A stretch of 32,707 nucleotides of DNA from Rhodospirillales bacterium (GTDB lineage Bacteria; Pseudomonadota; Alphaproteobacteria; BOG-932; Roseiterribacteraceae), in assembly GCA_028291365.1 (NCBI GenBank), contig JAQGIE010000267.1, positions 1-32,707 on the forward strand. The letters are read 5' to 3'. The notes under the pieces are model-generated. The model was not told the origin of the DNA and did no database searches. It worked only from the letters and a program-made list of their open reading frames with translations. The position numbers were made by a program, and so were the translations under genes. This document shows, one piece after another, positions 3,690 to 32,707 of the stretch. The first letter of the stretch is position 1; every line of letters starts with the position of its first letter.

Positions 3690-3706
3690 CACTTGGCGAG
3701 TTCGCG

Positions 3707-4375: not shown

Positions 4376-4381
4376 CACAGC

Positions 4382-4393: not shown

Positions 4394-4535
4394 AAGGCCG
4401 TGGCGCCGACTCCGCGGCGGCACCATGCCGTGTCTCCGCGCAATAACGGGCGCTAGATCGTGGGATGTCGAGCACCGCTCGCGCGCACGCAGAGGAGCGT
4501 CCCCAGTGCAGGAGCACCGCAATGCATGTCGGCGT

Positions 4536-10544: not shown

Positions 10545-12107
10545 CTACCTGATCGGCGCCGTGTGGTTCCGCGTGACACCGTCGGCCATGAATCGCTCCA
10601 GATCCTGCGCAAGTTTTTTGTGCTCGGCTTCGTCGCGATACATCATGTGGCCGCCTTCATAACATTTGACCGTAATGCGCCTGGTCAGGTCGTCGGGCAG
10701 CGTCGCGATCGAACGCGCTTGTCCCTCGCAGCTATTGGTCGGGTCATAGCGGCCCACCGCGACAAGGATCTGTAGCCCGGGTTGCAGCTGCATCGCGTTC
10801 TGCACCCATGACGGATTCTCGTTGAACATATGCCAGACTTCGCCGTCGACACGTCCCATCGCAAGCGCGGCCGCCGCGCCGTCGGTCTGGTTGTACGACC
10901 ATTGCTTGCCACTGCTGCGCCGCTCCGCTCCCGGCGTCGGCATATACCCCGCTTCCAGCGCGCGATAGGCGAGGTCGGTGTTGAAGCCGAGCGCGCCCGT
11001 GTAGCCGAGATCGGTTGCATAGCCCAACTCTTCGCGTAGATAGCGCGATATGTGGAACTGCCGTTCAGGTGGCTGCTTTTCGTCGCCGAACCGGCGCGTG
11101 TCGACCTCCGCCAACTCGCGCGCCCTGTCGCCGTCGAAAAAGCCCGTGAGGAATTGTCGCGTGTTCATCACAAGCGTTTTGGCGTCGATTTGGTCGGGAC
11201 GCACGCCGGTATAGGCGGCGAGCTGCTCGATGATATTTTTGCGCTCCGCGTCGGACAGCGTGTCGGCTTTGTCCAGCGCCGGCAGATAGGCCGCAGCCAC
11301 CCACGCATCGACCTGTCGCATCGTTATAACGGGAACGCGCTGCAGGTCGGGCGACAGGCGCCTGTAGTGGAGGGCGGTTGCGGCGTGGTTCTGCACGTTC
11401 ATCGCATTCCAGAACGACACCGGCATCTTCACGCTGGGAAACCCGCCGGAGATCAGCAGAAGCCCCGTGACGTTCAGGCCGCGTTTGGCTAGAAACTCCG
11501 CCACCGCAGCGGCGCGCCACACGCCATAGCTTTCGCCCAGCAGGAACAACGGCTGCGTCTGCGCGCCAAAGCGGGCGCGATAGGCGCGCACGAACTCGGA
11601 CGCGGCCGCGACATCACCCTTCATGTTGAAGAATTCAGGCGCGAATTGCGGCTGCGCCAGGCGACTGAAGCCGGTCTCGACCGGGTCGTAGAACACCAGA
11701 TCCGACGTAGTCAGCAGGGTCAGCAGATTGTCGACGACGCCGTCCTTGGTGATACGGCGGGGTCCGAGAAACTCGGTGTGAACATAGATTGACGGAATCG
11801 TCGGCCCGCCGTTCCAGGCGATCATCAGCGGCCGCGGCGCGCTGCCAGCCTTCTGCTTAACCACATAGGCGACGAAAAAGACATGCGCGTGCACCTCGCC
11901 CGTCTCGTCGACACGGATCGGCAGGCGGCCCACGCGTGCCTCGTACTGCAACGGACCGTGCGCAGTCTGCATCGTGTGCTCGGTGATGACGATCGGCTCG
12001 TCGCCGGTCACCAGCGGTGCGATCATGCGTGACCACGCGTGTGCCGCGTGTGCGCTACCGGCCGCGAATGCTACGGCGAGCGCGACGGCGATGGCGGCGT
12101 GCTTCAT
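10545..12107 (-). CDS. Exported serine carboxypeptidase-like protein (peptidase family S10)
   Basis: 520-residue secreted alpha/beta hydrolase that would remove C-terminal residues from peptides. The signal peptide is MKHAAIAVALAVAFAAGSAHA. The S10 features appear in order: IAWNGGPTIPS (about 96-106, the oxyanion region, normally NGGPG), the nucleophile motif GESYG with Ser193, a catalytic Asp in VAVGRYDPTNSC and a catalytic His in YEGGHMMY near the end. The start at 12105-12107 was chosen because it begins the signal peptide and overlaps the S9 peptidase stop as ATGA. The frame stays open upstream to 12734, but that part is antisense to the S9 gene and not coding. Last gene of the sigma-FecR-receptor-peptidase series. 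Substrate unknown. Confidence 0.88.
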   Translation of the reverse strand: MKHAAIAVALAVAFAAGSAHAAHAWSRMIAPLVTGDEPIVITEHTMQTAHGPLQYEARVGRLPIRVDETGEVHAHVFFVAYVVKQKAGSAPRPLMIAWNGGPTIPSIYVHTEFLGPRRITKDGVVDNLLTLLTTSDLVFYDPVETGFSRLAQPQFAPEFFNMKGDVAAASEFVRAYRARFGAQTQPLFLLGESYGVWRAAAVAEFLAKRGLNVTGLLLISGGFPSVKMPVSFWNAMNVQNHAATALHYRRLSPDLQRVPVITMRQVDAWVAAAYLPALDKADTLSDAERKNIIEQLAAYTGVRPDQIDAKTLVMNTRQFLTGFFDGDRARELAEVDTRRFGDEKQPPERQFHISRYLREELGYATDLGYTGALGFNTDLAYRALEAGYMPTPGAERRSSGKQWSYNQTDGAAAALAMGRVDGEVWHMFNENPSWVQNAMQLQPGLQILVAVGRYDPTNSCEGQARSIATLPDDLTRRITVKCYEGGHMMYRDEAEHKKLAQDLERFMADGVTRNHTAPIR

Positions 12108-16811: not shown

Positions 16812-16914
16812 CCCCGTCCTGTGATGGCCCGGTTCGTTCGGGCTCTTGTGGTGAGACGCGGCACGAAAGGAGATTTGCCAGCGCGTTGCGAAAATCTATC
16901 GCCGTGTTACGCGC

Positions 16915-17937
16915 CTACTGCTTGCGGCGGGCGATCTGGATCGTACCGTCGGGCTGGCGTTGCCACGTCAGCGGGAAAGCGCGGGTGAGGTTGTCGAGGA
17001 ACGATGGAAAATCGTTGACGCGGTAGATGCCGCTGACCTGCAACGCTTCGAGATCGGGCGTCGCCAGCCGGATCGTCGCAGGCGAGTAGCGCGCGAATTC
17101 GCGCACCGCGGCACCGAGGAATGTGCCGGCAAACACGATCTTGCCCGAACGCCAGGCGAGTTCGTCATTCGGATCGACGCGCCTGATCGTCGGCGCGCGT
17201 CCTTGCGGCAGCCCGGGCTCATAACTTGCTTTCTGTCCCGGCTCGAGCACTGCTTCAATTGCGCTTGAGCGCGCGTTGCGCAGCTCGACCCGACCGCTAA
17301 CCAGCACCACCGCGGTTGTCGATTCGTCCCGGCGCACCGCGAAATCGGTGCCGGTCGCGTGCACGACGACGCGATCGGCGGCAACGGTGAAGGGGCGGTA
17401 GCTCTCGTGCGCGACGTCGAACTCGGCTTCGCCGGTCAGCAGAAGCAGCTCGCGCTTTCGCCACAACATGCGCACCGCGATCTGCGTCGATCCGTTCAAA
17501 CGGACGCGGCTGCCGTCACTGAGCTGCACGTCGAGCCGTTCACCCTGGCTCGACTCATAGTGATCGGTTGCGACACTTTCGGCTCGGTAGAGGACAATCG
17601 CGGCAGCCAGCACGGCAGCGGCGGCAACCCAACGGGCCGCGCTCACCGGTCGCGTCATCTCAGCCGGTTGCGACCGGTCGCGCCGCGGCAATGGCCCGCG
17701 GGCAGTACCGCGCGCGGCTTCGGCCAGCACGCGCCGCCACAGCACCGGATTGCCCAGCGCCGACCAAGTCCGTTCGGTCAGGTCCATCGCATAGGCATGT
17801 CGCGGATCGGCCGCGATCCAGCTGCGCAGCGCCTCGACGTCGACCGTGTCGGGTTCGCCCGCCAGCCGGCCCAGCCAGTCGGCGGCGACGTCCATCGTCG
17901 CATCGTCGGGCAGGTTGGCGGTGCCGCGCGTGCTCAT
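16915..17937 (-). CDS. FecR-family anti-sigma / signal-transducing inner-membrane protein
   Basis: 340-residue inner-membrane regulator that holds the ECF sigma factor and relays the signal from the receptor STN domain. The N-terminal cytoplasmic part contains the DUF4880-like DVAADWLGRLAG and LRSWIAADPRHAYAMD. One transmembrane helix follows at about 101-120 (AARWVAAAAVLAAAIVLY). The periplasmic FecR domain has GERLDVQLSDGSRVRLNGST and LLTGEAEFDVAHE, and the end is an STN-like C-terminal domain (VSGIYRVNDFPSFLDNLTRAFPL). The start at 17935-17937 overlaps the sigma stop as ATGA. The same frame is open farther upstream to 18162, but that is antisense to the sigma gene. Confidence 0.93.
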   Translation of the reverse strand: MSTRGTANLPDDATMDVAADWLGRLAGEPDTVDVEALRSWIAADPRHAYAMDLTERTWSALGNPVLWRRVLAEAARGTARGPLPRRDRSQPAEMTRPVSAARWVAAAAVLAAAIVLYRAESVATDHYESSQGERLDVQLSDGSRVRLNGSTQIAVRMLWRKRELLLLTGEAEFDVAHESYRPFTVAADRVVVHATGTDFAVRRDESTTAVVLVSGRVELRNARSSAIEAVLEPGQKASYEPGLPQGRAPTIRRVDPNDELAWRSGKIVFAGTFLGAAVREFARYSPATIRLATPDLEALQVSGIYRVNDFPSFLDNLTRAFPLTWQRQPDGTIQIARRKQ

Positions 17938-18491
17938 GTTTGCATCCGGCGTTTGACAAGATGCGCGATCGCACGCTTCAGATGGACGCGCACGGTCGCG
18001 ACATCGATCCCCAGCCGTTTTGCGATCTCGGCGTGGCTGATGCCTTCGAGGCGCGCCAGCATGAGCACGTCGCGGCGCATCGGATCCATCAAGGTTAGTT
18101 CTTCCTGTAGAACCCGCAGCTCGTCGCGCTGCGCCAGCACCATTTCGGGCGAGGGCTGCCACGCGTCGGCGAGATCGATCGCTGCTTCGATGGGCACGTC
18201 TTCTCTGGCTCTGCGCAACGTCGCCCTGCGCCGATACGAGTCCTTCAGAAGGTTAGACGCGGTTTGCAGAAGAAATGCCCGCATGTTCGAAATTCTCTCG
18301 ACCCCGGTCGAGGCGATGACGCGCGCGAACACCTCCTGCACGTAATCGTCGGTATCGACGTCGTTGCGGAGTCGCCGCCGGAAGAAGGCGCGCAATTCCG
18401 AGGTTTCGGCCAGCAGCCGACGTTCCGGCTCCTGTTCGAGCAGGTCCTTGTCGCCGACGGTGGGCGTGCGGGGTGGGCGCATCGTCGGCAC
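17934..18491 (-). CDS. FecI-like ECF RNA polymerase sigma factor
   Basis: 185-residue extracytoplasmic-function sigma factor. Region 2 is at about 28-95 (LRAFFRRRLRNDVDTDDYVQEVFARV, NMRAFLLQTASNLLKDSYRRR). Region 4 is at about 125-178 (LTLMDPMRRDVLMLARLEGISHAEIAKRLGIDVATVRVHLKRA), a clear helix-turn-helix. GTG at 18489-18491 and ATG at 18480-18482 are both possible starts, differing by three residues; neither has a strong ribosome site. First gene of the series sigma, FecR, receptor, S9, S10, and divergent from the PLP enzyme gene. FecI-type sigma factors usually drive their own receptor operon and become active when receptor substrate is sensed. Confidence 0.94.
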   Translation of the reverse strand: MPTMRPPRTPTVGDKDLLEQEPERRLLAETSELRAFFRRRLRNDVDTDDYVQEVFARVIASTGVERISNMRAFLLQTASNLLKDSYRRRATLRRAREDVPIEAAIDLADAWQPSPEMVLAQRDELRVLQEELTLMDPMRRDVLMLARLEGISHAEIAKRLGIDVATVRVHLKRAIAHLVKRRMQT

Positions 18492-18555
18492 GATCCGCGC
18501 CAGTGCCGCAGAAGGTCAAGTTTTCCAACGCCGAAAACACACTGGATTCTTTGCC

Positions 18556-18571
18556 GCAAAAACTTTTTTGC
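18556..18571. promoter_or_regulatory. Perfect inverted repeat in the sigma / PLP-enzyme divergent promoter region
   Basis: GCAAAAA-CT-TTTTTGC has 7-base arms and a 2-base spacer, inside the AT-richer 119-base gap between the divergent genes. It does not match the Fur, RirA or Irr consensus I know. It could be a regulator site or part of a promoter; I cannot decide which. Confidence 0.35.
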
Positions 18572-18610
18572 ACGCCTGGCAATTCGCCCGTGATTGCGCG
18601 TCTACCGCAG

Positions 18611-19846
18611 ATGGCCCTTCCACGCGCTCTCCGGCGACGCCGCGTCCTGCAACTGGCGGCCGCGCTGCCGCTCACTGCCGCACTTCCGGCCCGATCCGCG
18701 TCGAGCGTGCCGATCCGACTGCCCGACAAGGCAAGCTTCTCGTTCGATGGGACGCACCTGAACGCGGCCTATGCGCACCCGTTGTGTACCCGCACAGCCG
18801 AAGCGGCGGCTGCATTTCTCCACAGCCGCGCCCACGATCCCGACCGCAACTGGCCGGTCGACAATCCGCGCGACGCTGCGGTGGCGTTGTTCGCCAAGCT
18901 GATCAACGCCGACGCGCACGACGTCGCGGTCGTGCCCAGCACCCTGATCGGCGAGAACCTGATCGCGTCGGCGCTGGGGCTCGGCGCTGATGCGGGCGTG
19001 GTGACCGATCCGTTCCACTACGACGCGTCCCTGGTTCTGTATGGCGAGTTGCACAAGCGGGGCATGCCGCTGGAACTGGTGACGCCGCGCGACAACCGCA
19101 TCGATCTTGCCGATCTCGACGCAGCGATTAGGGCCGATACGCGGCTGGTCGCGATTTCACTCGTGTCGAGCGACACCGGCTATCTCCACGACCTGCATGC
19201 CGTCTGCGAGATCGCGCATCGCAAAGGAGCGATGGTCTATGCTGACGTCATTCAAGCGGCGGGTGCCGTGTCGATCGACGTCAAGGCGGCCGGTGTCGAT
19301 TTCTGCTGTGCCGGGACCTACAAATGGCTGATGGGCGAGTTCGGAACGGCGTTTCTGTACGTGCGCCCCGATCGTCTGCGCGATCTGAAACGCGTGCAGT
19401 TCGGCTGGCGTTCGACAGCGAGGCATCACAAGCATTTCTTGCCCTTCGACGAGCCTGGCCCGTTGATCGGCGACTGGGAGCTTGGCAACGATGCGGCCAG
19501 CCGGTTCGAAGTCAGCACGCCGAGTTGGGTTGCGTTGGCGGCCGTCGCGGGCTCGCTGTCCTACATTCACGAGATTGGCGTCGGCGCGATCGCGCGCCAC
19601 CGCGCGCCGCTGTTGCAGCGGCTGCAGGACGACCTCCCCAAACACGGTTTCCTGCCGCTGACATCGCGATCCGCGCAGGGACCGTATGTGGTGTTCGCGT
19701 ATGAAGGCGTACGCGCCCGCTTCGGCAAAGCGCTCAGCGACGCGAAAATATATACGACGATCTATCGCAACAAGATCCGCATCGCGCCGTCGGTCCATAG
19801 CGACATGCATGATATCGAGCGTCTGCTGCAGGTCCTGTCCGCGTAG
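18611..19846 (+). CDS. Tat-exported PLP-dependent enzyme, class V aminotransferase / isopenicillin-N-epimerase fold (PvdN-like)
   Basis: 411-residue fold-type I PLP enzyme. The N-terminus has a twin-arginine signal (RRRRVLQL followed by a weakly hydrophobic stretch to ALPARSA, about residues 8-30), so it is folded with its cofactor and then exported. PLP-binding residues are visible: Asp212 in VYADVIQAAG with Gln215, and the Schiff-base Lys238 in CAGTYKWLMG. The start at 18611 was chosen because it opens the Tat signal; in-frame GTG and earlier starts lack a ribosome site and would lengthen the n-region. Known relatives include isopenicillin-N epimerase-like proteins and the periplasmic pyoverdine-tailoring enzyme PvdN, which has the same fold and export route. 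Divergent from the sigma gene, suggesting a role with the receptor system. Reaction unknown. Confidence 0.87.
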   Translation: MALPRALRRRRVLQLAAALPLTAALPARSASSVPIRLPDKASFSFDGTHLNAAYAHPLCTRTAEAAAAFLHSRAHDPDRNWPVDNPRDAAVALFAKLINADAHDVAVVPSTLIGENLIASALGLGADAGVVTDPFHYDASLVLYGELHKRGMPLELVTPRDNRIDLADLDAAIRADTRLVAISLVSSDTGYLHDLHAVCEIAHRKGAMVYADVIQAAGAVSIDVKAAGVDFCCAGTYKWLMGEFGTAFLYVRPDRLRDLKRVQFGWRSTARHHKHFLPFDEPGPLIGDWELGNDAASRFEVSTPSWVALAAVAGSLSYIHEIGVGAIARHRAPLLQRLQDDLPKHGFLPLTSRSAQGPYVVFAYEGVRARFGKALSDAKIYTTIYRNKIRIAPSVHSDMHDIERLLQVLSA

Positions 19847-22175: not shown

Positions 22176-23891
22176 TCAATGCGTCGCCACCGCGCCGGAG
22201 CCCATCTGCGCCGCCGCGTCGCCGTCCTTGCGCGGGTCCGAAGCGCCGTAATTCACCTTGGCGGCGAAGTCGCGCTGCACCGCCTGGCCGCCGCCCATCA
22301 CGGCGGGCGAGAAGGCGCCGCGCAGCTTGACGTCATGGCCGAGCCGGGTGAGTTCGGCGCGCACCTCGGCCGGGACGCGGTCTTCGATCTGCACGTCGCA
22401 GCCGGCGAAGGTCTCTTTGGAGAAGCGCGCCGCCTCCATCGCGGCCTGGATGTTCATGCCGAAATCGACGACGTTCGACACGAACTGCGCGTGCGCCTGG
22501 CTCTGGTTCCAGCCGCCCATGATGCCGAAGGCGATGCGCGTGTCGCCCTTGGCGAGAAAGCCCGGAATGATCGTGTGCACGGGCCGTTTGCGGCCGGCCA
22601 GGACGTTGGGGTCCTTGTCGTCGAGCGTGAACAGCCCGCCGCGATTCTGCAGCGCGAAGCCGCCGCCGTCGACGACCACGCCCGAACCGAATCCCAGGCT
22701 GACATAGTTGCTCTGGATCAGCGACACCATGTTGCCGTCGCGGTCGACGGTGCTGAGATAGATCGTGTCGGCGCCGACGCCCGGCGGCTTGGCGAAGCGA
22801 ACGTCGCAATTCGCCTTGTCGGAAGCGATCTGGGTCGCGCGCTGCTGCGCAAACTGTTTCGAGATCAGCCCCTCGGTCGGAATCTTGGCAAAGCGCGGGT
22901 CGGCGTCGTAGCGCAGCATGTCGGCATAGGCGAGCTTCTTCGCCTCGATCATCGCGTGCAGCGCGCGCGCCGAATTGTGCCCGTACGAAGCGATCGGGAA
23001 AGTCTCCAGGATGTTGAGCATTTCGAGCGCCGCGATGCCCTGGCCGTTGGGCGGCAGTTCGGTGACGGTCCAGCCGCGATAGAGCGTCGAGACCGGCTCG
23101 GCGAACTCGCCGCGATAGTCGGCGAGATCGGCGGCCACCATGGTGCCGCCCTTCGCCGCCGAGCTTTTCAGGATGCGTTGCGCGATCTCGCCTTTGTAGA
23201 ACGCGTCGCGGCCGTGCTGCGCCAACTGGCGATAGCTCCAGGCGAGGTCGGGATTGCGGAACAGCTCGCCGAGCCTGGGCGCGTGATCGCCGCCGATCAG
23301 GTAGGTGCGCGCCGCGACCGGGTCTTCGCGCAACGTCGAAACACTGCCGCGCCACAATCCTTCGACGACCTCGCCCGGGAAGATGCCTTCCTCGGCCGCC
23401 GCGATGCTGGGCGCCAGCACCTCGGCCAGAGTCTTGCTGCCGAAGCGCGCCAGCATCTGGTCCCACGCGTCGACCGTGCCGGGTACGGTGACCGAATGGA
23501 TGCCGCGCTTCGGCATCTTGTCGATCCCGTGCTGCTTGAGGAATTCGGGCGTGAGCGAAGCGGGCGCCCAGCCCGATCCGTTGAAGCCGTACAGCTTGCC
23601 GCTCTTGGCCTCGTAGATGATGGCGAAGAGGTCGCCGCCGATGCCGTTGCTCATCGGCGCGGTGAGCCCCATCGCCGCGTTGGCGGCCACCGCCGCGTCG
23701 ACCGCGTTGCCGCCCTGTTCGAGGATCTGCACCGCGATGCGCGAGGCGAGCGGATGTTCGCTGGCGGCGACACCGTATTGCGAAATCACCATCGAGCGCG
23801 CCTGCGACCGGTCCTGCGCGCCGGCATCCTGCGCCGAGGCCGGCCCGATTGCGCAACACGCCACGATCAAAGCTGCCAGGATCCGTTTCAT
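22176..23891 (-). CDS. ggt: Gamma-glutamyltransferase, exported (Ntn-hydrolase proenzyme)
   Basis: 571-residue periplasmic enzyme that cleaves or transfers gamma-glutamyl groups. It has a signal peptide (MKRILAALIVACCAIGPASAQ), a large-subunit motif MGLTAPMSNGIGGDLFAI and substrate residues in LPPNGQGIAALEML. The autoprocessing site is GADTIYLSTVDRDGN, with the predicted nucleophile Thr376 becoming the N-terminus of the small subunit. The gene points the same way as the biosynthetic operon, 109 bases after the SPFH gene, and may be its last member or an independent glutathione-recycling gene. If linked, it could trim or acyl-transfer a glutamyl group on the exported product (inference). The chain is slightly nearer the cephalosporin-acylase-like branch in wording, but I cannot place it firmly. 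Confidence 0.9.
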   Translation of the reverse strand: MKRILAALIVACCAIGPASAQDAGAQDRSQARSMVISQYGVAASEHPLASRIAVQILEQGGNAVDAAVAANAAMGLTAPMSNGIGGDLFAIIYEAKSGKLYGFNGSGWAPASLTPEFLKQHGIDKMPKRGIHSVTVPGTVDAWDQMLARFGSKTLAEVLAPSIAAAEEGIFPGEVVEGLWRGSVSTLREDPVAARTYLIGGDHAPRLGELFRNPDLAWSYRQLAQHGRDAFYKGEIAQRILKSSAAKGGTMVAADLADYRGEFAEPVSTLYRGWTVTELPPNGQGIAALEMLNILETFPIASYGHNSARALHAMIEAKKLAYADMLRYDADPRFAKIPTEGLISKQFAQQRATQIASDKANCDVRFAKPPGVGADTIYLSTVDRDGNMVSLIQSNYVSLGFGSGVVVDGGGFALQNRGGLFTLDDKDPNVLAGRKRPVHTIIPGFLAKGDTRIAFGIMGGWNQSQAHAQFVSNVVDFGMNIQAAMEAARFSKETFAGCDVQIEDRVPAEVRAELTRLGHDVKLRGAFSPAVMGGGQAVQRDFAAKVNYGASDPRKDGDAAAQMGSGAVATH

Positions 23892-24000
23892 CGCGCCCTC
23901 GCCGACATGGTCGGGACGCAGCAGATCATGGCCGGCCGGCCGGGCTCAAGCGTCGCTCCGTCGCACAAATTCACGAACGCGCGCCGCTATTCGCCTTCGA

Positions 24001-25149
24001 TCAGGGACGCTGCTCCGGTGGTCTGGGCGCCGGCGTCGCTGCGGCGGCCGGCGTCGCAACGGGCGGGGTCGGTTCGGCGGCGCTCGGTGACAACGGCGTC
24101 TGCGCCTTCTGCGCCGGCGCAGCTTCCTTGCTGGGCAGAACCGCGTTGGTCGATCTGGGCGACTGGGTTTTGACCGTTGCGCGCGGCACGACACCGCTGG
24201 GCGCGGCGGCGACCTCCGGTTTTTCGGCCGGCTTGTCAGCGGGCGGCGATTGCACGCCGGTGTCGTTGCCGAGAATCAGCGGCATGCCATGCTCGCCCGA
24301 TCCGATCACGACGACCTTGGCGTTGGGCGACTTGGCCAGCTCCAGCGTCGCCTCGATCCCCTTCCAGCGCAGATAGCCTTCGGTGATGCCGTTGGAGATG
24401 ATGTCCTGGAATTCGCGGATGCCCTGCGCCTCGATCTTCTTGCGCTCGGTCTCCTTGGCTTCGCGCAGCAGGCGGAAATCATATTCCTGATTGAGCTGGT
24501 ACTGCTCGTTCTTGCGCTCGACCGCCATTTCGATCGACCTGGGCAGGCGGATGCCGTTGATCAGCACATCCTCCAGCACGACGAACTCCATCTTGTCCGA
24601 CGCCTTCGGATTGAACTTGTGGCGCATGTCGGAACGCGCACGCTCCTGAATGTCGTGCTGCACCCGGTCGCGCGGCAAGCTGTAGATCTGCTCGGGCCGA
24701 TAGAGCGCGAAGATCTCGCGCAAATTGGCGCCGATCACCGGCGAGATCAGCGTGTCGCGATAATCCGGGCCGATATACTGGTGCATGTACCCGACATTGT
24801 CGGCCAGCACCTGATAGCGGTACGAGACCTCGACCGTGATGCCGAGCCCGTCCGATGACAGGACGTGATATTCGACGGTCGCCTGCTGCAGCCGGGCGTC
24901 ATAGATGAACAGCTTGTCCCACGGCCAGGTGATCTGCGTCCCTTCCTCGAGATGCTCGTTGATGACGGTGCCGTGGCCGAAGCGGCGCCAGATCACCGCG
25001 ACATGGCCGGGGTCGACCGTGTGGAAGATCAGCGGCGCGTAATAGACGACGAGGAAGATCGCGAGGAAGACGCCGATCCCGATCTCGAGCGAATAATAAC
25101 CGAGCCAATCGGTCACGCGTTTCCATAGACGACGGATGGTTCGCATCAC
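24001..25149 (-). CDS. SPFH/prohibitin-like (band 7) membrane protein
   Basis: 382-residue protein with one N-terminal transmembrane helix (about 21-43, LEIGIGVFLAIFLVVYYAPLIF). An SPFH/band-7 domain follows at about 45-210 (VDPGHVAVIWRRFG, VEVSYRYQV, IISPVIGANLREI-like segment). Next is a charged coiled-coil stretch (about 215-265, REAKETERKKIEAQGIREFQ) and a Pro/Ala-rich C-terminal tail of about 80 residues that is probably disordered. Family members oligomerise into ring- or cage-like membrane microdomains. It starts with GTG at 25149 (GTGA overlap with the ABC gene) or ATG at 25146 (TGATG). Tight coupling to the exporter suggests a scaffold or chaperone for export, an unusual partner for a peptide ABC transporter. 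Confidence 0.88.
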   Translation of the reverse strand: MMRTIRRLWKRVTDWLGYYSLEIGIGVFLAIFLVVYYAPLIFHTVDPGHVAVIWRRFGHGTVINEHLEEGTQITWPWDKLFIYDARLQQATVEYHVLSSDGLGITVEVSYRYQVLADNVGYMHQYIGPDYRDTLISPVIGANLREIFALYRPEQIYSLPRDRVQHDIQERARSDMRHKFNPKASDKMEFVVLEDVLINGIRLPRSIEMAVERKNEQYQLNQEYDFRLLREAKETERKKIEAQGIREFQDIISNGITEGYLRWKGIEATLELAKSPNAKVVVIGSGEHGMPLILGNDTGVQSPPADKPAEKPEVAAAPSGVVPRATVKTQSPRSTNAVLPSKEAAPAQKAQTPLSPSAAEPTPPVATPAAAATPAPRPPEQRP

Positions 25150-26783
25150 GCGACGGCCTCGCTGGCCAGTTCGAGCAACTTGCCTTCCTCCATCCGTAGC
25201 TGGCGATCGGCGAGATGGAAGTACCGGTCATCATGCGTCACCGCGATGATGGTGGCTCCCCGAGCGCGCAGGATCGGCAGGATTTCGTAATAGAATTTGC
25301 GCCGGAAGATCGGGTCCTGATCGGCCGCCCATTCGTCGAGGATGCAGATCGGCCGCCGTTCCAGCATGGCGACGAGCAGCGCCAGCCGCTTGCGCTGCCC
25401 CGCCGACAGATCGACCGTGTTGAAGGCGCGATCGACCAGCGCGGTTTTTTCGGTCAGCTCCATTTCATCGATCAGCGGCTGCACCTCGTCGGGCGAGTCG
25501 AAATCGACCCCGTGCAGCTTGCGAAACAGATGAAAGTCCGAGAACACGGTCGCGAACATGTCGCGATAGGACTGCGCGTTGACCGGCGTCACCAGCTCGC
25601 CGTCGATCTGGATGCTGCCGAGTTGCGGCAAATAGAGCGCGGTCAGAAGTTTGAGCAGGGTCGACTTGCCCGAACCGTTGCCGCCGGTCAGGAACACGAT
25701 CTCGCCGGCGCGCAAGGTCAGGTCGATCGGGCCAACCGCGAACGGCACGGCGTGGTTGTCGCGATGCTGGAAGACGACACCGCGCAGCACGATCTCGCGG
25801 AAGGCGCGGCGATTGCCGTTGGGCGTCGAGAGCAGCTGCGCGCGCTCGACCGGACCGGCCAGCATCTCGTCCAGCTTGATGATGTTGGCGGCGGCGATGT
25901 TGGCGTTGTTGAACACGGGCACGTTGGCCACCAGCCCCGAGATCGGTCCGATCAGGAACAGCACGGCCGTGGTCGTCTTGACCACGACGTCGCTGTAGCC
26001 CGAGGACAGCATCGGCACCAGGAACACCATGGTGCCGAGCAGCAGATAGAAGGTCGACTGGGCGAAGATGAAATTGCGCGCCAACTCGGTCTGGGCGCTG
26101 GTGCGCAGCGCCGCGGCCCGGGCCGAGGTGACATCGACCTCTTCCTGCACCGCAACGCTTCGGCGGCTGTTCATTTTGACTTCTTTGAAGCCGTCGAGCA
26201 GCCCGGTCAGCTCGTCATGCAGCGCGTTCTCCTGGAGCTGCGCTTCCTGCAGCACGGCGCTGACCCGCGCCGTCTTGCGCAGATAGACGGTCACCGCCAG
26301 GGACATGAACGCGACGGCGAGCGCGAAGGCGGTGAGCGAGAGCGAGATCAGATAGAGCGTGGCGAAAAAGATCAGCACCGCCGATTGCAGCGCCAGCACC
26401 AGCGGCGTCGCTGCCTGCGACATCGTCTGGGTGTCGGTGCGCACGCCGCCATAGATCCGCGCCCGGCCGATTTCCTCGAGGTCGCGCAACTCGCAGGTGC
26501 GCACGCGATCGATCAGCCGCACCCGGATCTGGTGGATCAGCTGTTCGACCTCAGCCGCCGTCTTGGTCATCACGAAGCGTTGGGCGAGCACGTAGATCGC
26601 CATCACCGCCACGAACAGCAGCACGTCGAGGCGGTCGGTGTCGGATTTGGCGGCGTGCTCGGCAGCGCTGTTGATCACGACGAGGATCAGCGCGTTGGCA
26701 ATGCCGGCAACGACCAGCATCATCAGCATGCGCCGGCGCGAGACGCCGACGAAACCGCGGTCGAGGAGGCGTAGCAGCTCCAT
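25146..26783 (-). CDS. Cyclic-peptide-type ABC exporter, SyrD/PvdE-like (fused membrane and ATPase domains)
   Basis: 545-residue half-transporter that would export a peptide-like product across the inner membrane as a homodimer. The membrane domain spans about 15-290, with helices at about 20-40, 52-72, 125-147, 150-168, 240-262 and 268-290. The ATPase domain has Walker A GGNGSGKST (367-375), signature LSAGQ (459-463) and Walker B ICILDE (479-484). Length and order match the cyclic peptide transporter family of SyrD and PvdE, which serves nonribosomal lipopeptides and siderophore precursors. There is no peptidase C39 domain, so a leader would have to be removed by something else. The ATG directly follows the TGA of the small membrane protein gene. 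Confidence 0.93.
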   Translation of the reverse strand: MELLRLLDRGFVGVSRRRMLMMLVVAGIANALILVVINSAAEHAAKSDTDRLDVLLFVAVMAIYVLAQRFVMTKTAAEVEQLIHQIRVRLIDRVRTCELRDLEEIGRARIYGGVRTDTQTMSQAATPLVLALQSAVLIFFATLYLISLSLTAFALAVAFMSLAVTVYLRKTARVSAVLQEAQLQENALHDELTGLLDGFKEVKMNSRRSVAVQEEVDVTSARAAALRTSAQTELARNFIFAQSTFYLLLGTMVFLVPMLSSGYSDVVVKTTTAVLFLIGPISGLVANVPVFNNANIAAANIIKLDEMLAGPVERAQLLSTPNGNRRAFREIVLRGVVFQHRDNHAVPFAVGPIDLTLRAGEIVFLTGGNGSGKSTLLKLLTALYLPQLGSIQIDGELVTPVNAQSYRDMFATVFSDFHLFRKLHGVDFDSPDEVQPLIDEMELTEKTALVDRAFNTVDLSAGQRKRLALLVAMLERRPICILDEWAADQDPIFRRKFYYEILPILRARGATIIAVTHDDRYFHLADRQLRMEEGKLLELASEAVA

Positions 26784-26975
26784 TCAGCTGGCCGCGATTG
26801 CTCGTTCACGACGCAAACGACGACGATCGATCGAGCGCAACATCAGCAGCGTGATCAAGGTGACGAACGGTGTGACGAAGATGGACAGCAGAAAATAACC
26901 GAAAAAGCCGGCCGGGCGGTTGATCGCCATCAGGCCGACGAGGAGGCAGAGCACGATATAGATTGCGATGGCCAT
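26784..26975 (-). CDS. Small membrane protein (63 residues), unknown function
   Basis: Two hydrophobic segments (about 2-19 and 24-46, FFGYFLLSIFVTPFVTLITLLML) are separated by a short NRPAG turn. A basic tail with RRRLRRERA follows, predicting both ends in the cytoplasm. The ATG at 26973-26975 has GGAGAG 5-6 bases upstream. It fits in a 206-base space between the secreted protein and the ABC exporter, with its stop abutting the exporter start, so it is co-translated. It could be an accessory subunit of the exporter. The longer open frame running upstream to 27647 is antisense-type noise. I do not recognise a family. Confidence 0.72.
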   Translation of the reverse strand: MAIAIYIVLCLLVGLMAINRPAGFFGYFLLSIFVTPFVTLITLLMLRSIDRRRLRRERAIAAS

Positions 26976-26989
26976 GATCTCTCCAGCGG

Positions 26990-27475
26990 TTACGGCGCAG
27001 CGCGCAGGGGGAAGAAGCCGAATTCGGAAAAGGTGACCAGCCGACGGCAATCGGTGCCGTCCTCCAGCTCGCAGACCTGGACCACCGCCTCGCCGCGCAA
27101 GCCTTGGCAGGTCGGCGAGTTGACCTGGGTCAAGATGCGCTGGTGGATGTCGTTGGGCAGAATGGTCGGGTGCGTGCTGAGGGAGGCGCCGACCGCGCGA
27201 CCGCCCGCATCGAAAAAGCGGATACCGAGCTCGACCACCCGGACCGGCAACCGCAGCGAATTGCGCACATAGATCCAGGGCGAGCAATACAGCCCCGCCG
27301 GATCGCGCATATCGCCATAGACCGGCGCGCGCGGGACGTTGACGCTGATGCGCGCAGGGCCGCGCAGCAGCTGCTCGACGAGTTTCTCGCCGGTCAGCGG
27401 TATCACCGAGGGCGGCTCCGCCGCCATCGCGGTGGCGGTCGCCAACCAGGTCAGCAGCGCCCATCGCAGCATCAT
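26990..27475 (-). CDS. Secreted hypothetical protein with four cysteines
   Basis: 161-residue protein with signal peptide MMLRWALLTWLATATAMAAE. Four cysteines in the mature part (in YCSPW, PTCQG, QVCEL and TDCRR) could form two disulfides in the periplasm. The middle is strand-rich (WIYVRNSLRLPVRVVELGIRF-type segments), suggesting a small beta-sandwich. The start at 27473-27475 overlaps the phosphopantetheinyl transferase stop as ATGA, and the stop lies 14 bases before the small membrane protein gene. No family recognised; its place beside an exporter suggests a periplasmic binding or maturation role for the product (inference). Confidence 0.75.
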   Translation of the reverse strand: MMLRWALLTWLATATAMAAEPPSVIPLTGEKLVEQLLRGPARISVNVPRAPVYGDMRDPAGLYCSPWIYVRNSLRLPVRVVELGIRFFDAGGRAVGASLSTHPTILPNDIHQRILTQVNSPTCQGLRGEAVVQVCELEDGTDCRRLVTFSEFGFFPLRAAP

Positions 27476-28164
27476 GCGAGTTCTCCCCACCGCACATGGC
27501 GGCGCTGGATCGGCCGGCCTGCCGCCGACGCGACCGCGGCGACAAAGTTCGGATCCGGCTCGAAGGTTTCGACCGACCAGGCGGTGCGCGCGGTGTCGGC
27601 GCGGATCTGCACGGTGCGGACGTCGAGGGCCGGCTCGGCGGTGCCATCGACCAGCCGCGGATCGATCTGCAGGCCGGCGCCGCAAGCTTTCAGGACGGCT
27701 TCCTTGCGCACCCAGCCGCGCAGGGTGCGGCGCGACGCGTCCGAACCGGCAGCGAGCGCGGCGCAATCGGCCGGCGTGAATGCGACGCGCAGCACGGAGT
27801 CGAGGTCCGGCAAAGTCTGGTAGCGTTCGACATCGATGCCGATCGGATCGGGTCCGGCCGCCACCGCGATCATGCTCGCATCGCTGCTGCTGCTCTGGTT
27901 GAACGCCAGCGACGGCATCCCGGCCAGCGCCGGTTTGCCGGTCGGTCCCGCGACCAGCGCCAGCGCGCCGGGATCGGCGCCGACATAGCGCGCCAGCACC
28001 CGCCGCAGCGCCACGCGGCGATCGGCGAAACGCTGCGCATCGCGCGGAGCGTGGAACCGGTCGCGCCGGGTGCGTTCGGCCGGCGAGAGCAGCGACCAGG
28101 CCGCGCGCGACTGGTCGTACGTGGCGTCGAGCCGGACGAACCACACGTCGATGGCGTCGCTCAT
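27472..28164 (-). CDS. 4'-phosphopantetheinyl transferase, Sfp type
   Basis: 230-residue enzyme that transfers phosphopantetheine from CoA to the serine of acyl- or peptidyl-carrier proteins. Visible motifs are PTGKPAL (about 74-80), the metal-binding GIDVE (Asp111, Glu113) and WVRKEAVLKACG (Trp151, Glu155, Lys159). The segment normally reading FNxSHS is FNQSSS (88-93), so the CoA-contacting His is Ser. The length matches Sfp-type enzymes. Overlaps the thioesterase gene by 4 bases. Its presence implies a carrier protein, which is not found in this window, so the partner lies outside or elsewhere in the genome. Confidence 0.92.
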   Translation of the reverse strand: MSDAIDVWFVRLDATYDQSRAAWSLLSPAERTRRDRFHAPRDAQRFADRRVALRRVLARYVGADPGALALVAGPTGKPALAGMPSLAFNQSSSSDASMIAVAAGPDPIGIDVERYQTLPDLDSVLRVAFTPADCAALAAGSDASRRTLRGWVRKEAVLKACGAGLQIDPRLVDGTAEPALDVRTVQIRADTARTAWSVETFEPDPNFVAAVASAAGRPIQRRHVRWGELA

Positions 28165-28928
28165 GCCATCGCCTCGGTGGCGAGCGTCGCGACCAGGTCG
28201 GGCAGCGACGATTGCTCGTGCAGGAAGAAATGACCGCCCGGCACCTGCAGCATGCGGAACGGGCCGCGCGTCGCGCGGGCCCAGCCCTGCAGCCCGGCCG
28301 CATCGACGAAACCGTCATCGGCGCCCCCCAGCGCCACGACGGGGCAGGCAAGCACCGTCGATTCCGGTGCGACCAGCGCCTCGTTCAAGGCGAAATCGGC
28401 GCGCAGCAGCGGCAACAGCAGCGCCAACAATTCGGGATTGTCGAAGACCTGCGCCGGCGTTCCGCCGAGGCTGCGCAGATGCGCGATGAAGGCGTCGTCC
28501 GGCAGCGCGTGGCGTCCGGGAAAGCGCGGCGGCGCCCACGGATTGTCGCGCGCCGCGACGACGAGGCGCTCCGGCGACGGCAAGCCGGCGGCTGCGAGCG
28601 CATTGGCGAAAGCGAAGGCGACGTTGGCGCCAAGACTGTAGCCGAACAGAGCGAAGGGCCGGTCGAGATACGGACCCAGCGCATCGAGCAGCGGCGGGAT
28701 CGCCGCTTGCGGCGTGCGCGCCAAGGTTTCGCGAAACCTTGCTTCACGGCCGGGCAACTGCACCGGACAGAATTCGACGTCGCGCACACGGCGCCACTTG
28801 CGGAACACCGACGCGCCGCCGCCCGCATAGGGAAAGCAGAAGATGCGCAACGCGGCACGCGGATCGGGCGCGCCCGACGGCAGATAGGGTGTGACCGGCA
28901 GTTCGCCGACGCGTTGCGCTTCACCCAT
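28161..28928 (-). CDS. Type II thioesterase (GrsT/SrfAD-like)
   Basis: 255-residue alpha/beta hydrolase that normally clears mis-loaded carrier proteins of NRPS/PKS lines. Hallmarks are FCFPYAGGGASVFRKW (30-45) and LPGREARFRE (58-67), the nucleophile Ser98 in GYSLGA, a catalytic Asp at about 204-205 in GGADDGFVD, and His233 in VPGGHFFLHE. ATG at 28926-28928 overlaps the dioxygenase gene by 8 bases. Together with the phosphopantetheinyl transferase it argues that the pathway uses thioester-bound intermediates, in apparent conflict with the lack of an NRPS in the window. Confidence 0.92.
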   Translation of the reverse strand: MGEAQRVGELPVTPYLPSGAPDPRAALRIFCFPYAGGGASVFRKWRRVRDVEFCPVQLPGREARFRETLARTPQAAIPPLLDALGPYLDRPFALFGYSLGANVAFAFANALAAAGLPSPERLVVAARDNPWAPPRFPGRHALPDDAFIAHLRSLGGTPAQVFDNPELLALLLPLLRADFALNEALVAPESTVLACPVVALGGADDGFVDAAGLQGWARATRGPFRMLQVPGGHFFLHEQSSLPDLVATLATEAMA

Positions 28929-29880
28929 GCGCCGCGACTTCGCTGTAGGGCGCGCTCATCGCCGCCAGGATCAGGCGCTTGCCGGTGAAGGAGTCGCGCC
29001 CGTGCGCGACCTGCATATTGTCAAGCAGCAGCACGTCGCCGCGCTGCCATGTGAAGCGCTGGATCTCGGCCGCGAAAGCGGCGCGGATGGCGGCGAGATC
29101 GTCCGCGTCGATGGCGCCGCCGTCGGCATGCACGGCATGGCGCGGCAGGCTGGATTCGCCGAACAGATCAAGCATGGCACGCGCCTGCTCGTCGCCGAGG
29201 CTCGACACGTGAAACAGATGCGCCTGGTTGAACCAGATCTCGCGCCCGCTCACGGGGTGCCGCGCGGTCGCCTGACAGGCCTGGCTGGTCTGCAGCCGGT
29301 CGCCGTCCCAGCGCGCGTCGATCGCATGCGCCGTGCAATAGGCGTCGACCTCGGCACGGTCGTCGGTCTGGAATACGGTCTGCCACGGCAAGTCGACATT
29401 GGGCGCGTAGTTGCGCACATAGCGCACGCCGCGTGCCGCGAAGCGCGCCATGCGATCGGCCCCGATCCGTTCGGTGACGCGCAGCATGTCGGCGAGCGGC
29501 GTCGCGCCGCCGCTGGCGGCGGCGATGGCGCAGTGAAAAGCCAGCCGTGTCGGCCAGTCGCGCTGATAGGCGTTCTCGCAATGCAGCGGGATTTCGAGAT
29601 CGGCGGGATAGATGGTGGCGGTGAAGACGCGATCGCCGACGCTGGTGCGCGGCGTCGAGCGATAGACATAGTCGAGTCGGTCAGCGCCCAGCGCATCGAC
29701 GAACTCGGCGAAGGAATCCTGGTCGGCGTCGAAACCGCGCAACAGCAACGCGCCATGCTGCAGCAGCTGCGCCTCCAGCAGCGCACGGTTGGCGACGGCG
29801 AAATCGGGCAGCGTCGCGACGCTGGCGGGTTCGATCACGAAGGGAAGCACGCGTTGCTGCGCGTCGGCGGCGGCGTGCAT
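28921..29880 (-). CDS. TauD/TfdA-family Fe(II)/2-oxoglutarate dioxygenase, SyrP-like
   Basis: 319-residue cupin-fold oxygenase expected to hydroxylate an amino-acid side chain using 2-oxoglutarate. The metal triad is visible: His100 and Glu102 in PLHCENAY (an HxE in place of HxD, common in the SyrP/TauD group) and His293 in MQVAHGRDSF. A 2-oxoglutarate-binding Arg is near 302 (GKRLIL). The segment WFNQAHLFHVSSL at about 216-228 is typical of SyrP-like enzymes that act on carrier-bound or peptide-bound residues such as aspartate. Starts 8 bases after the radical SAM stop. The substrate may be the peptide made by the cluster (inference). Confidence 0.9.
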   Translation of the reverse strand: MHAAADAQQRVLPFVIEPASVATLPDFAVANRALLEAQLLQHGALLLRGFDADQDSFAEFVDALGADRLDYVYRSTPRTSVGDRVFTATIYPADLEIPLHCENAYQRDWPTRLAFHCAIAAASGGATPLADMLRVTERIGADRMARFAARGVRYVRNYAPNVDLPWQTVFQTDDRAEVDAYCTAHAIDARWDGDRLQTSQACQATARHPVSGREIWFNQAHLFHVSSLGDEQARAMLDLFGESSLPRHAVHADGGAIDADDLAAIRAAFAAEIQRFTWQRGDVLLLDNMQVAHGRDSFTGKRLILAAMSAPYSEVAAHG

Positions 29881-29888
29881 CGAAGCGC

Positions 29889-31817
29889 TCAGGAAGCAAG
29901 CGCGCGCGATACCGCGACGCCGGAATCGCCGGTGGGAACCAGGCTCATGACACGGCCGCGCTCACGGAACACGAGGTTCTTGCGCACCAGCAGGTCGTAG
30001 GCGGCACCGAACTGGGCCTGCACCCCATCTTCCTCGCGCGGCTCGGCCAACGCGGCGAGACAGGCGAGCTCGCCTTCACCGAGGTCGGTTTCGATCATCA
30101 TGCCGCGGCGCGTGTCTTCGAGCGTGGTGCCGTATTCGCTTTCGATCAGCGTCAGGCCGGGCGCGAACAGACCATCCTGGGTGTGCCAGCGACGTTGCCA
30201 TTGCCCGACTGCTTCGCGCAGCGGCGCGATCCAGCTACCGACCGCCACCGCATACGGCGCGTCGGCATTCTGGTCGGCAAAGTAATAGGCCATGTTCATC
30301 AGCACGCGCGGCGGGAACGGATAGGCGAGCGCGTAATAATCCAGCGGCGCCAGCTTGAGTTCGTAGCGCGCGGCTTCGGTGAAATACGGGCTGAACCGGT
30401 CGAAGCGCACCGGGAACACGCCCTGCGGCGGCGGCAGATGTGCCAGGTGCGGCAGGTCTTCGAGATAGGTGCGATAGGTGTCGGCACTTTCGCCCGGAAA
30501 CCCGACCAGCAGGTTCCACATCGGCGTGACATCGTATTGCTTGCACAGGCTGAGGAACTTGAGATTGTTGAACGACGTCGTGCCCTTGCGCATCAGCTTG
30601 AGCGTCGACGTCGCCAGCGCCTCGATTCCGGGCTGCAGCTCGCGCACGCCGGCCTTCGCGAGGATGCGCAGATCGTCTTCCGACAGATCGGCCTTGACCT
30701 CGTAGAACATGACCACGTGCGGCGGCGTCTTCAACCGCGCGAACACGCCGTCCACATATTCGCGCGGCAGGATGTTGTCGACGCTGGCGAAGCGGTGCAC
30801 GCGATCGGCATAGCGATCGAACAGGCCTTCGATCATCGTGATCGCGGCGTCGGGAGCCATGGCGCGGTACGACATCGTGCCGCCGTTCAGGCCGCAAAAC
30901 GTGCAATGGGCGCGCTCGCCCCACCAGCATCCGCGCGACGTCTCGAACAGCAGCTCGACCCGGTCCGCAACCTCGGGGAATCGACCCACATAGGACTCGA
31001 GGAATCCGTCGTAATCGAGCGCCACCGGCGTCTGGATATCCAACTCGCGGCCCATCTCGGCGATGCCGTCCAGTTGGCGCTTGGGCGAATGCTTGCCGTA
31101 CACGACGACTTCGTCTTCGGGCACTGCGACTTCGATCGACCGGCTGTTCTGGCGGCTGAGAACGCCGTCGATCCGGTGCATCGCGTCGACGTTGCCGCTG
31201 GCGAGATGCTCGACGAATTCCGGGAACGACAGCAGCGCGTGGCCCGAAAACACGAAGTCGAGCGACGGCACGTGGTTGATGATCTCGATTCCCATCGTGC
31301 CTTCGCAATTGGCACCGCCCATCACGACGATCTGCTTGGGATTGCGCAGCTTGAGACGGCGCGCCAGTGCGAAGCTGGGCAGGTTCTGGAAGAACATCGA
31401 CGTCAGCCCGACGAGATCGGCCTGGTCGAGCCCGTGCTGATCGATCAGCTCGTCAAGAATGTCATCGAGGCGTGCCCGCACCGGTTCGATGACGCGCCCA
31501 TACAGCGCCAGCCGCTCGGGTCCGAAATGCTGGGCGTAGCGCGCGAAAAACGCGTCACTGTTGTCGGGCAGGTCGGGAAACGCCGAACGGCGGAACAGCC
31601 ATTCGCCAAAACCGCTGACATGCCCCTCCATGCTGTTGGCGATGAAGCCATAGGTCTCGATACCGAACAGGGTGCCGAAAGCATGGTTGAGATAGTGTAC
31701 GTCGACGCTTGCCCGGCCCGGCATCGCCGCTTCGACCACCGATCGCAGCTGCGTCAGCGCGATCGAGGGAATGTGCAGCGCCGAGAACGGCATGTTGACG
31801 AGCTGGATCTTGATCAT
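29889..31817 (-). CDS. B12-binding radical SAM enzyme, RiPP maturation type (rSAM_ocin / RiPP C-methyltransferase-like)
   Basis: 642-residue enzyme. The N-terminal part (about 1-240) is a Rossmann-like cobalamin-binding domain with family wording VNMPFSALHIPSIALTQL, VDVHYLNHAFG, MFFQNLPSFALARRLK and VMGGANCEG; a DxHxxG motif is not seen. The radical SAM core (about 285-520) has the cluster ligands Cys297, Cys305 and Cys308 in SRGCWWGERAHCTFCGLNG, the CWWG...CTFCG pattern of the ribosomal-peptide maturation subfamily TIGR03975, whose members sit beside leader peptides of the Nif11 or NHLP type. The last about 120 residues are variable. ATG at 31815-31817 has GGGGAG 6 bases upstream. Known members are proposed to C-methylate peptide residues. 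No typical leader peptide is seen nearby. Confidence 0.92.
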   Translation of the reverse strand: MIKIQLVNMPFSALHIPSIALTQLRSVVEAAMPGRASVDVHYLNHAFGTLFGIETYGFIANSMEGHVSGFGEWLFRRSAFPDLPDNSDAFFARYAQHFGPERLALYGRVIEPVRARLDDILDELIDQHGLDQADLVGLTSMFFQNLPSFALARRLKLRNPKQIVVMGGANCEGTMGIEIINHVPSLDFVFSGHALLSFPEFVEHLASGNVDAMHRIDGVLSRQNSRSIEVAVPEDEVVVYGKHSPKRQLDGIAEMGRELDIQTPVALDYDGFLESYVGRFPEVADRVELLFETSRGCWWGERAHCTFCGLNGGTMSYRAMAPDAAITMIEGLFDRYADRVHRFASVDNILPREYVDGVFARLKTPPHVVMFYEVKADLSEDDLRILAKAGVRELQPGIEALATSTLKLMRKGTTSFNNLKFLSLCKQYDVTPMWNLLVGFPGESADTYRTYLEDLPHLAHLPPPQGVFPVRFDRFSPYFTEAARYELKLAPLDYYALAYPFPPRVLMNMAYYFADQNADAPYAVAVGSWIAPLREAVGQWQRRWHTQDGLFAPGLTLIESEYGTTLEDTRRGMMIETDLGEGELACLAALAEPREEDGVQAQFGAAYDLLVRKNLVFRERGRVMSLVPTGDSGVAVSRALAS

Positions 31818-31921
31818 CGCAACTCCCCGCCGGCGCTCACCTGTAAGATCCCTGCCGGAGTCTCGGAGGCGGACCGGGGTGCGGACCTGCGCCGCAACGA
31901 GTAGGTCAGTTCGTGCCCGGT

Positions 31922-31960
31922 CGCTTCAGACGTCACGGCGGGGGCGTGACGCCTGAGCGA
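31922..31960 (-). terminator. Strong stem-loop between the first and second genes of the operon (attenuator candidate)
   Basis: Perfect 7-base stem CGTCACG (31931-31937) / CGTGACG (31945-31951) with a 7-base G-rich loop. It is extended by TCAG/CTGA (31926-31929/31953-31956) and outer CGCT/GCG pairs with one bulge. No T-run follows on the minus strand, so it looks more like a partial terminator or mRNA-processing/stability element than a full stop. It would favour the upstream gene's transcript. Confidence 0.55.
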
Positions 31961-31973
31961 ACGGTTTGTCAGA

Positions 31974-32453
31974 TCAGGCGACGGCGGGCTTGCGCGCGCG
32001 CGCTGCGTCGACCTCGGCGGCGAATTCCTGCTTCTTCGCCGACAGGTCGAAGGTCAGGAAGGTCCCGCCCTGCTCGAAATGACGCGCGAAGACGCGGCCC
32101 AGCGCGTAGGTCGCGGCCACCGACAGGCCCGGCATGGCGATCATGCCCGCCGCGGTGCCGATCACCGGGATCGCCTTGATCAGGCTGCCCGTCACGCTAG
32201 CCGCCGCGGCCGGGGCGAGGCTGCCCAGCAACGAGACGACCGTCGACTTCACCGCGTTGCGCTGGAACGGCACGTCATAGAGTTTCGACAACGAATGCAG
32301 CATCTTGAGCTGCACGGCGGTGAGCGCCGCGATGTCGGCGCCCGGCACCGGAATGAAGCCCGCACCAGCCGCCCAACCGGTGTAGCCGCCGACGAGCTTC
32401 ATCGCTTCGTCGTACTTGCCCACGCCGTTGCTTTCGATTTGAGACTGGGTCAC
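31974..32453 (-). CDS. DUF697 (YcjF-like) small membrane-associated protein, first gene of the biosynthetic operon
   Basis: 159-residue protein rich in Gly, Ala and Val. It has the DUF697-type core GFIPVPGADIAALTAVQLKML (about 32-52), LSKLYDVPFQRNAVKS and LIKAIPVIGTAAGMIAMPG (91-109). It also has several moderately hydrophobic helices (about 22-45, 70-90, 95-120), a charged segment DLSAKKQEFAAEVDAARARK and a short tail ending KPAVA. The start is GTG at 32451-32453 with GGGAGGG 4-5 bases upstream. There is no signal peptide. It precedes the radical SAM gene by 156 bases containing a stem-loop. It could anchor the biosynthetic enzymes to the membrane, or itself carry a modified region, in the way of a large precursor; neither is shown. 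Confidence 0.8.
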   Translation of the reverse strand: MTQSQIESNGVGKYDEAMKLVGGYTGWAAGAGFIPVPGADIAALTAVQLKMLHSLSKLYDVPFQRNAVKSTVVSLLGSLAPAAAASVTGSLIKAIPVIGTAAGMIAMPGLSVAATYALGRVFARHFEQGGTFLTFDLSAKKQEFAAEVDAARARKPAVA

Positions 32454-32707
32454 GAGCCCTCCCGCACTGTTAGGTCATTAGCCTCAAAGGCCTATTTGGA
32501 CGCGTTCTTACACAGCAGCGAACGATATTGCTACAAGCAGAGCGCGTTTTTTTGAATCGCTCAAAATTACGGTGTTTAGCGAAACCTTAATTACCACTGC
32601 CTGAGTTGTCGTCGTTCCGTAGCTCGGTGCTTCGTTTGCGCGTTCGCCTTCTTTTGCGCGCCGACGCGATCCTGCGCTCGCCAAGAAAATGCCAGTCCAG
32701 CGCGGCT
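32454..32707. other. Upstream region of the biosynthetic operon, to the window end
   Basis: AT-richer than its surroundings between about 32500 and 32600. No credible coding frame seen on either strand. It should hold the operon promoter. The best guess read on the minus strand is TTGTAG (plus 32532-32537 region) with TGTAAG 18 bases on, which is weak. A small GCCT-CAA-AGGC hairpin lies near 32481-32491 in the presumed leader. The gene beyond the edge cannot be seen. Confidence 0.4.

Follow-up and report, generated by a model that had tools for sequence, protein, structure and literature searches.

A RiPP-family radical SAM enzyme in a probable nonribosomal peptide cluster, cut by a contig end, of a Rhodospirillales bacterium

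The window analysed here is an entire contig (JAQGIE010000267.1, referred to as C135; 32,707 bases) of the 4.37-Mb, 271-contig genome of a Rhodospirillales bacterium, and carries a minus-strand operon in which a cobalamin (B12)-dependent radical S-adenosylmethionine (SAM) enzyme stands among genes of the kind that assist nonribosomal peptide synthetases (NRPSs). This operon very probably supplies the tailoring and export functions of an NRPS cluster of ordinary architecture, and is split from the divergent synthetase genes by an assembly break at position 32707. The original prediction had put it forward as a possible undescribed hybrid system, in which carrier-protein chemistry meets the modification of ribosomally synthesised and post-translationally modified peptides (RiPPs).

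The features of the operon and of the region upstream of it are the following:

32454-32707, no strand: divergent intergenic region; the final 22 bases (32686-32707) are identical to positions 1-22 of contig C229
31974-32453, minus: DUF697 protein, first gene of the operon (PF05128, 39.3 bits)
29889-31817, minus: B12-dependent radical SAM enzyme, predicted C-methyltransferase (TIGR03975, 472.7 bits; Cx7CxxC)
28921-29880, minus: TauD/clavaminate-synthase-like Fe(II)/2-oxoglutarate oxygenase, candidate beta-hydroxylase (PF02668, 142 bits)
28161-28928, minus: type II (proofreading) thioesterase (PF00975, 123 bits)
27472-28164, minus: Sfp/HetI-type 4'-phosphopantetheinyl transferase, PPTase (PF01648; HetI, 96 bits)
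26990-27475, minus: secreted or periplasmic protein of 161 aa with a signal-like N terminus (no Pfam match)
26784-26975, minus: small membrane protein of 63 aa, kept in the cassette described below (homologues beside other cassettes 31-47% identical)
25146-26783, minus: cyclic peptide export ABC transporter of the SyrD/PvdE type (TIGR01194, 343 bits against a cut-off of 286.2)
24001-25149, minus: SPFH/prohibitin-family membrane protein (PF01145, 90 bits)
22176-23891, minus: gamma-glutamyltranspeptidase, possibly the last gene of the unit, with a putative role in the pathway (PF01019, 466 bits)

The nine genes from DUF697 to SPFH were all found on the minus strand at the positions and in the families first proposed, the secreted protein being without a family, and the mixture of a RiPP-family radical SAM enzyme with a thioesterase, a PPTase and a TauD-type gene was borne out. 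Four adjacent pairs overlap by a few bases and the others lie 0-14 bases apart, apart from a single gap of 156 bases. From the short overlaps we infer, as had been proposed, that the nine genes form one transcription unit; the gamma-glutamyltranspeptidase gene starts 109 bases past the SPFH gene.

Among the window proteins that were scanned, none had an NRPS domain; nor did a RiPP precursor family match the scanned operon proteins or the single upstream open reading frame (ORF) tested (32508-32705). Reading of the gaps revealed no convincing short ORF in the 156-base gap or in the upstream region, and at this locus no precursor gene was found beside the maturase. A search of Rfam gave zero matches, and a promoter and terminator scan of the divergent region returned nothing.

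Contig joins and the synthetase genes

The operon starts 254 bases from the end of the contig. The lack of an NRPS reflects where the contig stops and does not characterise the locus itself. When the same genome was searched with the window end, contig C229 was recovered; it opens, in the same orientation, with exactly the 22 bases that close the window. An overlap of this length is expected by chance with a probability of about 1.7e-8 over all pairs of contig ends; it sits in intergenic sequence, and the genome search gave no further copy of it.

C229 (6,053 bp) consists of a short leader followed by one plus-strand NRPS frame, which diverges from the operon. The very start of this gene offers no suitable ATG or GTG, and the likeliest start codon is a CTG at position 41 of C229, or else a TTG further in. 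The contig ends within a truncated carrier domain, the missing remainder of which is the end of contig C261, and the gapless in-frame join inside this domain reads through a stretch of 26 residues that is the same, residue for residue, as the paralogous carrier of module 4.

Joined in this way, C229 and C261 encode NRPS-1 (3,628 aa), with the modules C-A-T, C-A-T, C-T and C-A-T, where C is a condensation, A an adenylation and T a carrier (PCP) domain. The second synthetase, NRPS-2 (2,334 aa), is arranged as C-A-T and C-A-T-TE, the last being a thioesterase domain, so that both ORFs together contain six C, five A, six PCP and one TE. A multimodular synthetase with a release domain is therefore linked to the window through the contig-end overlap, with a PPTase, a type II thioesterase and an exporter encoded alongside. 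As the overlap leads to divergent synthetase genes, the operon would be the tailoring and export arm of their cluster. The claim that no assembly line or core peptide was present stood for the window itself, and for the precursor, but failed for the NRPS, which lies on C229 and C261; an NRPS directly beyond 32707 is what had been named as speaking against a hybrid, and the undescribed system gives way to an NRPS cluster cut by assembly.

The five A domains were aligned on the GrsA anchor motifs, and their specificity codes were read with a code-to-residue table. The code of module 1 (DVWHISLIDK) corresponds to Ser, those of modules 2 and 4 (DAFFLGGTFK and DAFFLGVTFK) to a beta-branched aliphatic residue (Val/Ile), that of module 5 (DATKVGEVGK) to an Asn-like residue and that of module 6 (DAWTVAAVCK) to Phe. 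Among solved single A domains, that of module 6 is nearest to the Phe-activating TycA and GrsA.

Module 3 of NRPS-1 has a C domain with an intact HHxxxDG motif and a carrier, and no A domain; either it is loaded in trans or it would have to be passed over. Since SyrP-like hydroxylases are recruited by interface domains, module 3 was considered as one; this was dropped, as its C domain retains HHxxxDG, and a literature search on this reading found no paper. The carbamoyltransferase and ParA genes beyond the NRPS on C261 were set aside as cluster members, their neighbours being a porin and a GDSL autotransporter. A second NRPS locus in the same genome was located on contig C118 (L024), with PPTase and transporter genes of its own.

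The radical SAM enzyme and its relatives

The radical SAM enzyme matches TIGR03975 over its full length (residues 4-626), far above the curated cut-off of 281.85 bits, and its Cx7CxxC motif is invariant across its clade. In the AlphaFold model (mean pLDDT 83) the cysteine loop is poorly modelled, and the closest folds are CysS, TsrM and TokK. Both the [4Fe-4S] cysteine motif and a cobalamin-domain/SAM-barrel fold are thus present, and the enzyme is predicted from its sequence to transfer a methyl group to an unactivated peptide carbon.

A set of 84,980 species supplied 19 homologues with flanks of up to 10 kb, and more came from plasmids and genomes. A maximum-likelihood tree placed the window enzyme in a TIGR03975 clade of 19 rows (support 100/100) that includes none of the members with annotated RiPP precursors. 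Long NRPS matches were found within 10 kb in 8 of the 18 other clade loci and in 0 of the 14 loci outside (Fisher p 0.004); when helper pieces were also counted (MbtH, PPTase, thioesterase or AMP-binding in L029, L035 and L039), the numbers were 11/18 and 0/14 (Fisher p 0.0004), both p-values ignoring relatedness and unequal sampling depth. The NRPS-flanked loci come from Gemmatimonadota, Acidobacteria, Polyangium, Micromonospora, Actinocrinis, Massilia and others. The gemmatimonadotal homologue L028 has the same divergent layout of NRPS and radical SAM genes as the joined contigs, and in Candidatus Angelobacter (L031) an NRPS, the radical SAM enzyme, an exporter and a further NRPS follow one another. 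The TIGR03975 model is matched by each of the 11 clade members that were scanned, among them most of those flanked by an NRPS.

The synteny of the operon, whose loss in close relatives had been named as counting against the original prediction, was kept in locus L027 (radical SAM enzymes 62% identical), where the order DUF697, radical SAM, TauD, thioesterase, membrane protein, ABC exporter and SPFH is repeated without the PPTase and the secreted gene; yet the radical SAM enzyme is absent from the one further member of the genus whose genome was searched. First-look searches gave no close homologue in 59 relatives or in a sample of 398 genomes of the phylum, and a repeat search of the phylum with a clade profile gave a single match, outside the clade. 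Therefore, the clade is rare in the phylum of the window.

Clusters of Micromonospora and Actinocrinis (L036, L038 and L039) contain an NRPS, two MbtH genes, a halogenase-like FAD enzyme, a flavin reductase, the radical SAM enzyme and an O-methyltransferase; L036 and L039 carry an additional, divergent second TIGR03975-like gene; and in the acidobacterial L029 (8764-17565) the neighbours of the radical SAM gene are SbnA/SbnB-like diaminopropionate genes together with PPTase and MbtH genes.

The direct functional precedent for C-methylation of an NRPS product, by analogy, is DscE, a cobalamin-dependent radical SAM enzyme that methylates Val of the nonribosomal peptide discodermin in vitro (PMC12858407; 2025). 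The discodermin cluster dsc of Candidatus Entotheonella likewise combines an NRPS with a RiPP-type cobalamin radical SAM C-methyltransferase; it differs in its 14-module synthetase and its origin in an uncultured sponge symbiont, and the available part of the report describes no TauD-SPFH-DUF697 operon (PMC12858407). DscE is likened to the window enzyme by description. The argyrin cluster also encloses a radical SAM methyltransferase, Arg1 (PMC6902895, PMC8631618), likened by description; its product is a Cystobacter octapeptide with methoxytryptophan. CysS of the cystobactamid pathway, the best fold match to the model, is a B12 radical SAM methylase acting on a carrier-bound NRPS substrate (PMC8992657), but is only 14% identical, with no sequence match at E 0.01, and its substrate is a methoxy-aminobenzoate. 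The RiPP enzymes of TIGR03975 (Nif11, NHLP, pheganomycin and CefA loci) share the family and the Cx7CxxC motif with the window enzyme; they are 31-38% identical to it, lie outside its clade and stand beside ribosomal precursors, not NRPSs.

The SPFH-DUF697-exporter cassette

A tblastn search with the SPFH protein led to NRPS loci of Azospirillum argentinense (NRPS, TauD, ABC exporter, thioesterase, DUF697, small protein, SPFH), Skermanella mucosa (DUF697, hydrolase, exporter, prohibitin, MbtH, three NRPS genes) and plasmid pTM3 of Tistrella mobilis (NRPS, RND, DUF697, small protein, exporter, SPFH, thioesterase, PPTase). Among 385 sampled genomes of the class, 17 others carry an SPFH homologue (E <= 1e-25). 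Of their 19 SPFH loci, 15 also have DUF697, 15 the exporter and 9 an NRPS match, against no DUF697, no SPFH and a single NRPS match in the 18 control windows taken from these genomes. For about half of the SPFH loci the same contig carries condensation domains within ~25 kb. Judged by these neighbourhoods, DUF697, the small membrane protein, the TIGR01194 exporter and SPFH are a recurrent, little-noticed cassette of alphaproteobacterial NRPS clusters. Literature searches found no papers on DUF697 together with NRPSs, and nothing in the open literature that ties the Tistrella cassette to didemnin. One published neighbourhood in Thalassobaculum has, like the window, an NRPS/polyketide synthase, a cyclic peptide exporter and then a prohibitin-family gene; it is a single case, and the available part of that report mentions neither a radical SAM enzyme nor DUF697 (PMC12016528).

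SPFH-exporter pairs were also seen at L114, L119, L121 and L124, in stretches without an NRPS; the genomes G662, G742 and G735 lack any condensation domain.

SPFH, DUF697 and the small membrane protein may organise or protect the membrane around the synthetase and the exporter, SPFH and DUF697 probably organising a membrane patch. Nearly as likely, at somewhat less than an even chance, is that these three genes serve self-protection against a membrane-active peptide and not as a scaffold. Envelope-stress settings are known for DUF697 (YcjF) and for some SPFH proteins, and the cassette travels with peptide exporters, both of which would fit such a role. However, the cassette adjoins the exporter directly and not stress genes, and a paraslipin, an SPFH protein, has been found close to Tba, the exporter of the nonribosomal peptide balhimycin (PMC11960670).

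Proposed pathway, alternatives and significance

In the proposed pathway, the PPTase would activate the carriers, with the type II thioesterase clearing those that are misloaded. The synthetase would build a chain some six residues long, which may be N-acylated, of the sequence Ser, Val/Ile, X, Val/Ile, Asn, Phe. That the radical SAM enzyme C-methylates this peptide we consider rather likely; it would act on an unactivated carbon of the carrier-bound or released peptide. The best candidate for the site is Val/Ile, as in DscE, although this assignment is tentative. The TauD-type oxygenase has the HCE and distal His of the iron triad, as expected of SyrP/AsnO-type hydroxylases of the TauD/clavaminate synthase fold (HxD/E...H); its best solved relative is At3g21360, a clavaminate synthase-like protein, and a gene of this type also adjoins the Azospirillum NRPS. 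It would beta-hydroxylate a residue, for which the Asn predicted for module 5 is the best candidate. The product would leave through the TIGR01194 transporter.

Several observations weigh against this reading. The contig joins rest on sequence and not on reads, and that between C229 and C261 is without overlap. The tree did not include DscE; 10 of the 18 clade loci lack a long NRPS match in the surrounding 10 kb; and one of the clade loci, L037, lies near a RiPP-like locus. The fragmented metagenome-assembled genome (MAG) of L027 shows no condensation-domain NRPS in the contigs searched, probably because MAGs tend to lose repetitive genes. Four genomes with an SPFH homologue have no condensation domain at all; therefore, the SPFH-exporter set is not exclusive to NRPSs, and in such genomes it may serve other peptides.

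An alternative that concerns the product, and is compatible with an NRPS origin, is a siderophore resembling pyoverdine or alterobactin, which we regard as improbable. It would agree with the SyrP-like hydroxylase and the PvdE-like exporter (TIGR01194 includes PvdE-type exporters), with the extracytoplasmic function (ECF) sigma, FecR and STN-type TonB receptor genes at 14307-18491 on the same contig and with the class-V aminotransferase at 18473-19846. However, the codes for Ser, Val/Ile, Val/Ile, Asn and Phe, with module 3 lacking an A domain, include no hydroxyornithine or catechol starter and a single plausible iron ligand, and the receptor genes belong to a different unit, at a distance of more than 5 kb.

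A pathway in which the enzyme methylates a ribosomal precursor encoded elsewhere, with the NRPS-type genes co-opted, is very unlikely: TIGR03975 is named for RiPP maturation and many of its members lie beside Nif11, NHLP, CefA or pheganomycin precursors, but no precursor family was found at the locus, an NRPS is adjacent and the enzyme groups apart from the RiPP-linked members. Equally unlikely is that the contig-end overlap is a coincidence and the NRPS belongs elsewhere in the genome, since, although the overlap is merely 22 bases, NRPS sequences are repetitive and easily misjoined and the sister genome (L027) shows no NRPS, a chance match is so improbable, the overlap is intergenic with no other genome copy found, the join puts the 5' end of the NRPS exactly where a divergent gene is expected and L028 has the same layout.

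Elsewhere in the window, the genes at 14307-18491 form a FecI/R/A-type signalling unit followed by S9 and S10 peptidases (10545-14248), a possible uptake and processing system for a peptide or siderophore. The class-V aminotransferase has a twin-arginine-like N terminus and recalls PvdN of pyoverdine maturation. An OEP gene, an HlyD gene and two RND pump genes, all with the same orientation, occupy positions 1-10286; the Tistrella cassette (L083) is likewise flanked by RND genes.

The locus is not an undescribed hybrid, but a probable case of RiPP-like radical methylation in nonribosomal biosynthesis, a recently recognised kind, combined with a conserved export cassette. Of the proposed meeting of carrier-protein chemistry with ribosomal modification, the ribosomal half gained no support, no precursor having been found and the enzyme grouping with NRPS-linked relatives, while a milder form, an NRPS pathway with a RiPP-family C-methyltransferase, has its precedent in DscE (PMC12858407). 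As a broader and still speculative proposal, the TIGR03975 clade may be dedicated to nonribosomal peptides across several phyla and, separately, the SPFH-DUF697-small protein-TIGR01194 module may tether NRPSs to their exporter in Alphaproteobacteria, uniting tailoring, synthesis and export in one membrane patch.

Genome-mining tools and NCBI label every TIGR03975 enzyme as a RiPP maturase, and one published survey excluded TIGR03975 calls as likely false positives (PMC9426513). If the clade does predict C-methylated nonribosomal peptides (tert-leucine and the like), this would correct the RiPP labels and offer tractable terrestrial counterparts of DscE, and the SPFH/DUF697/exporter cassette provides a testable handle on the coupling of synthetase and exporter at the membrane.

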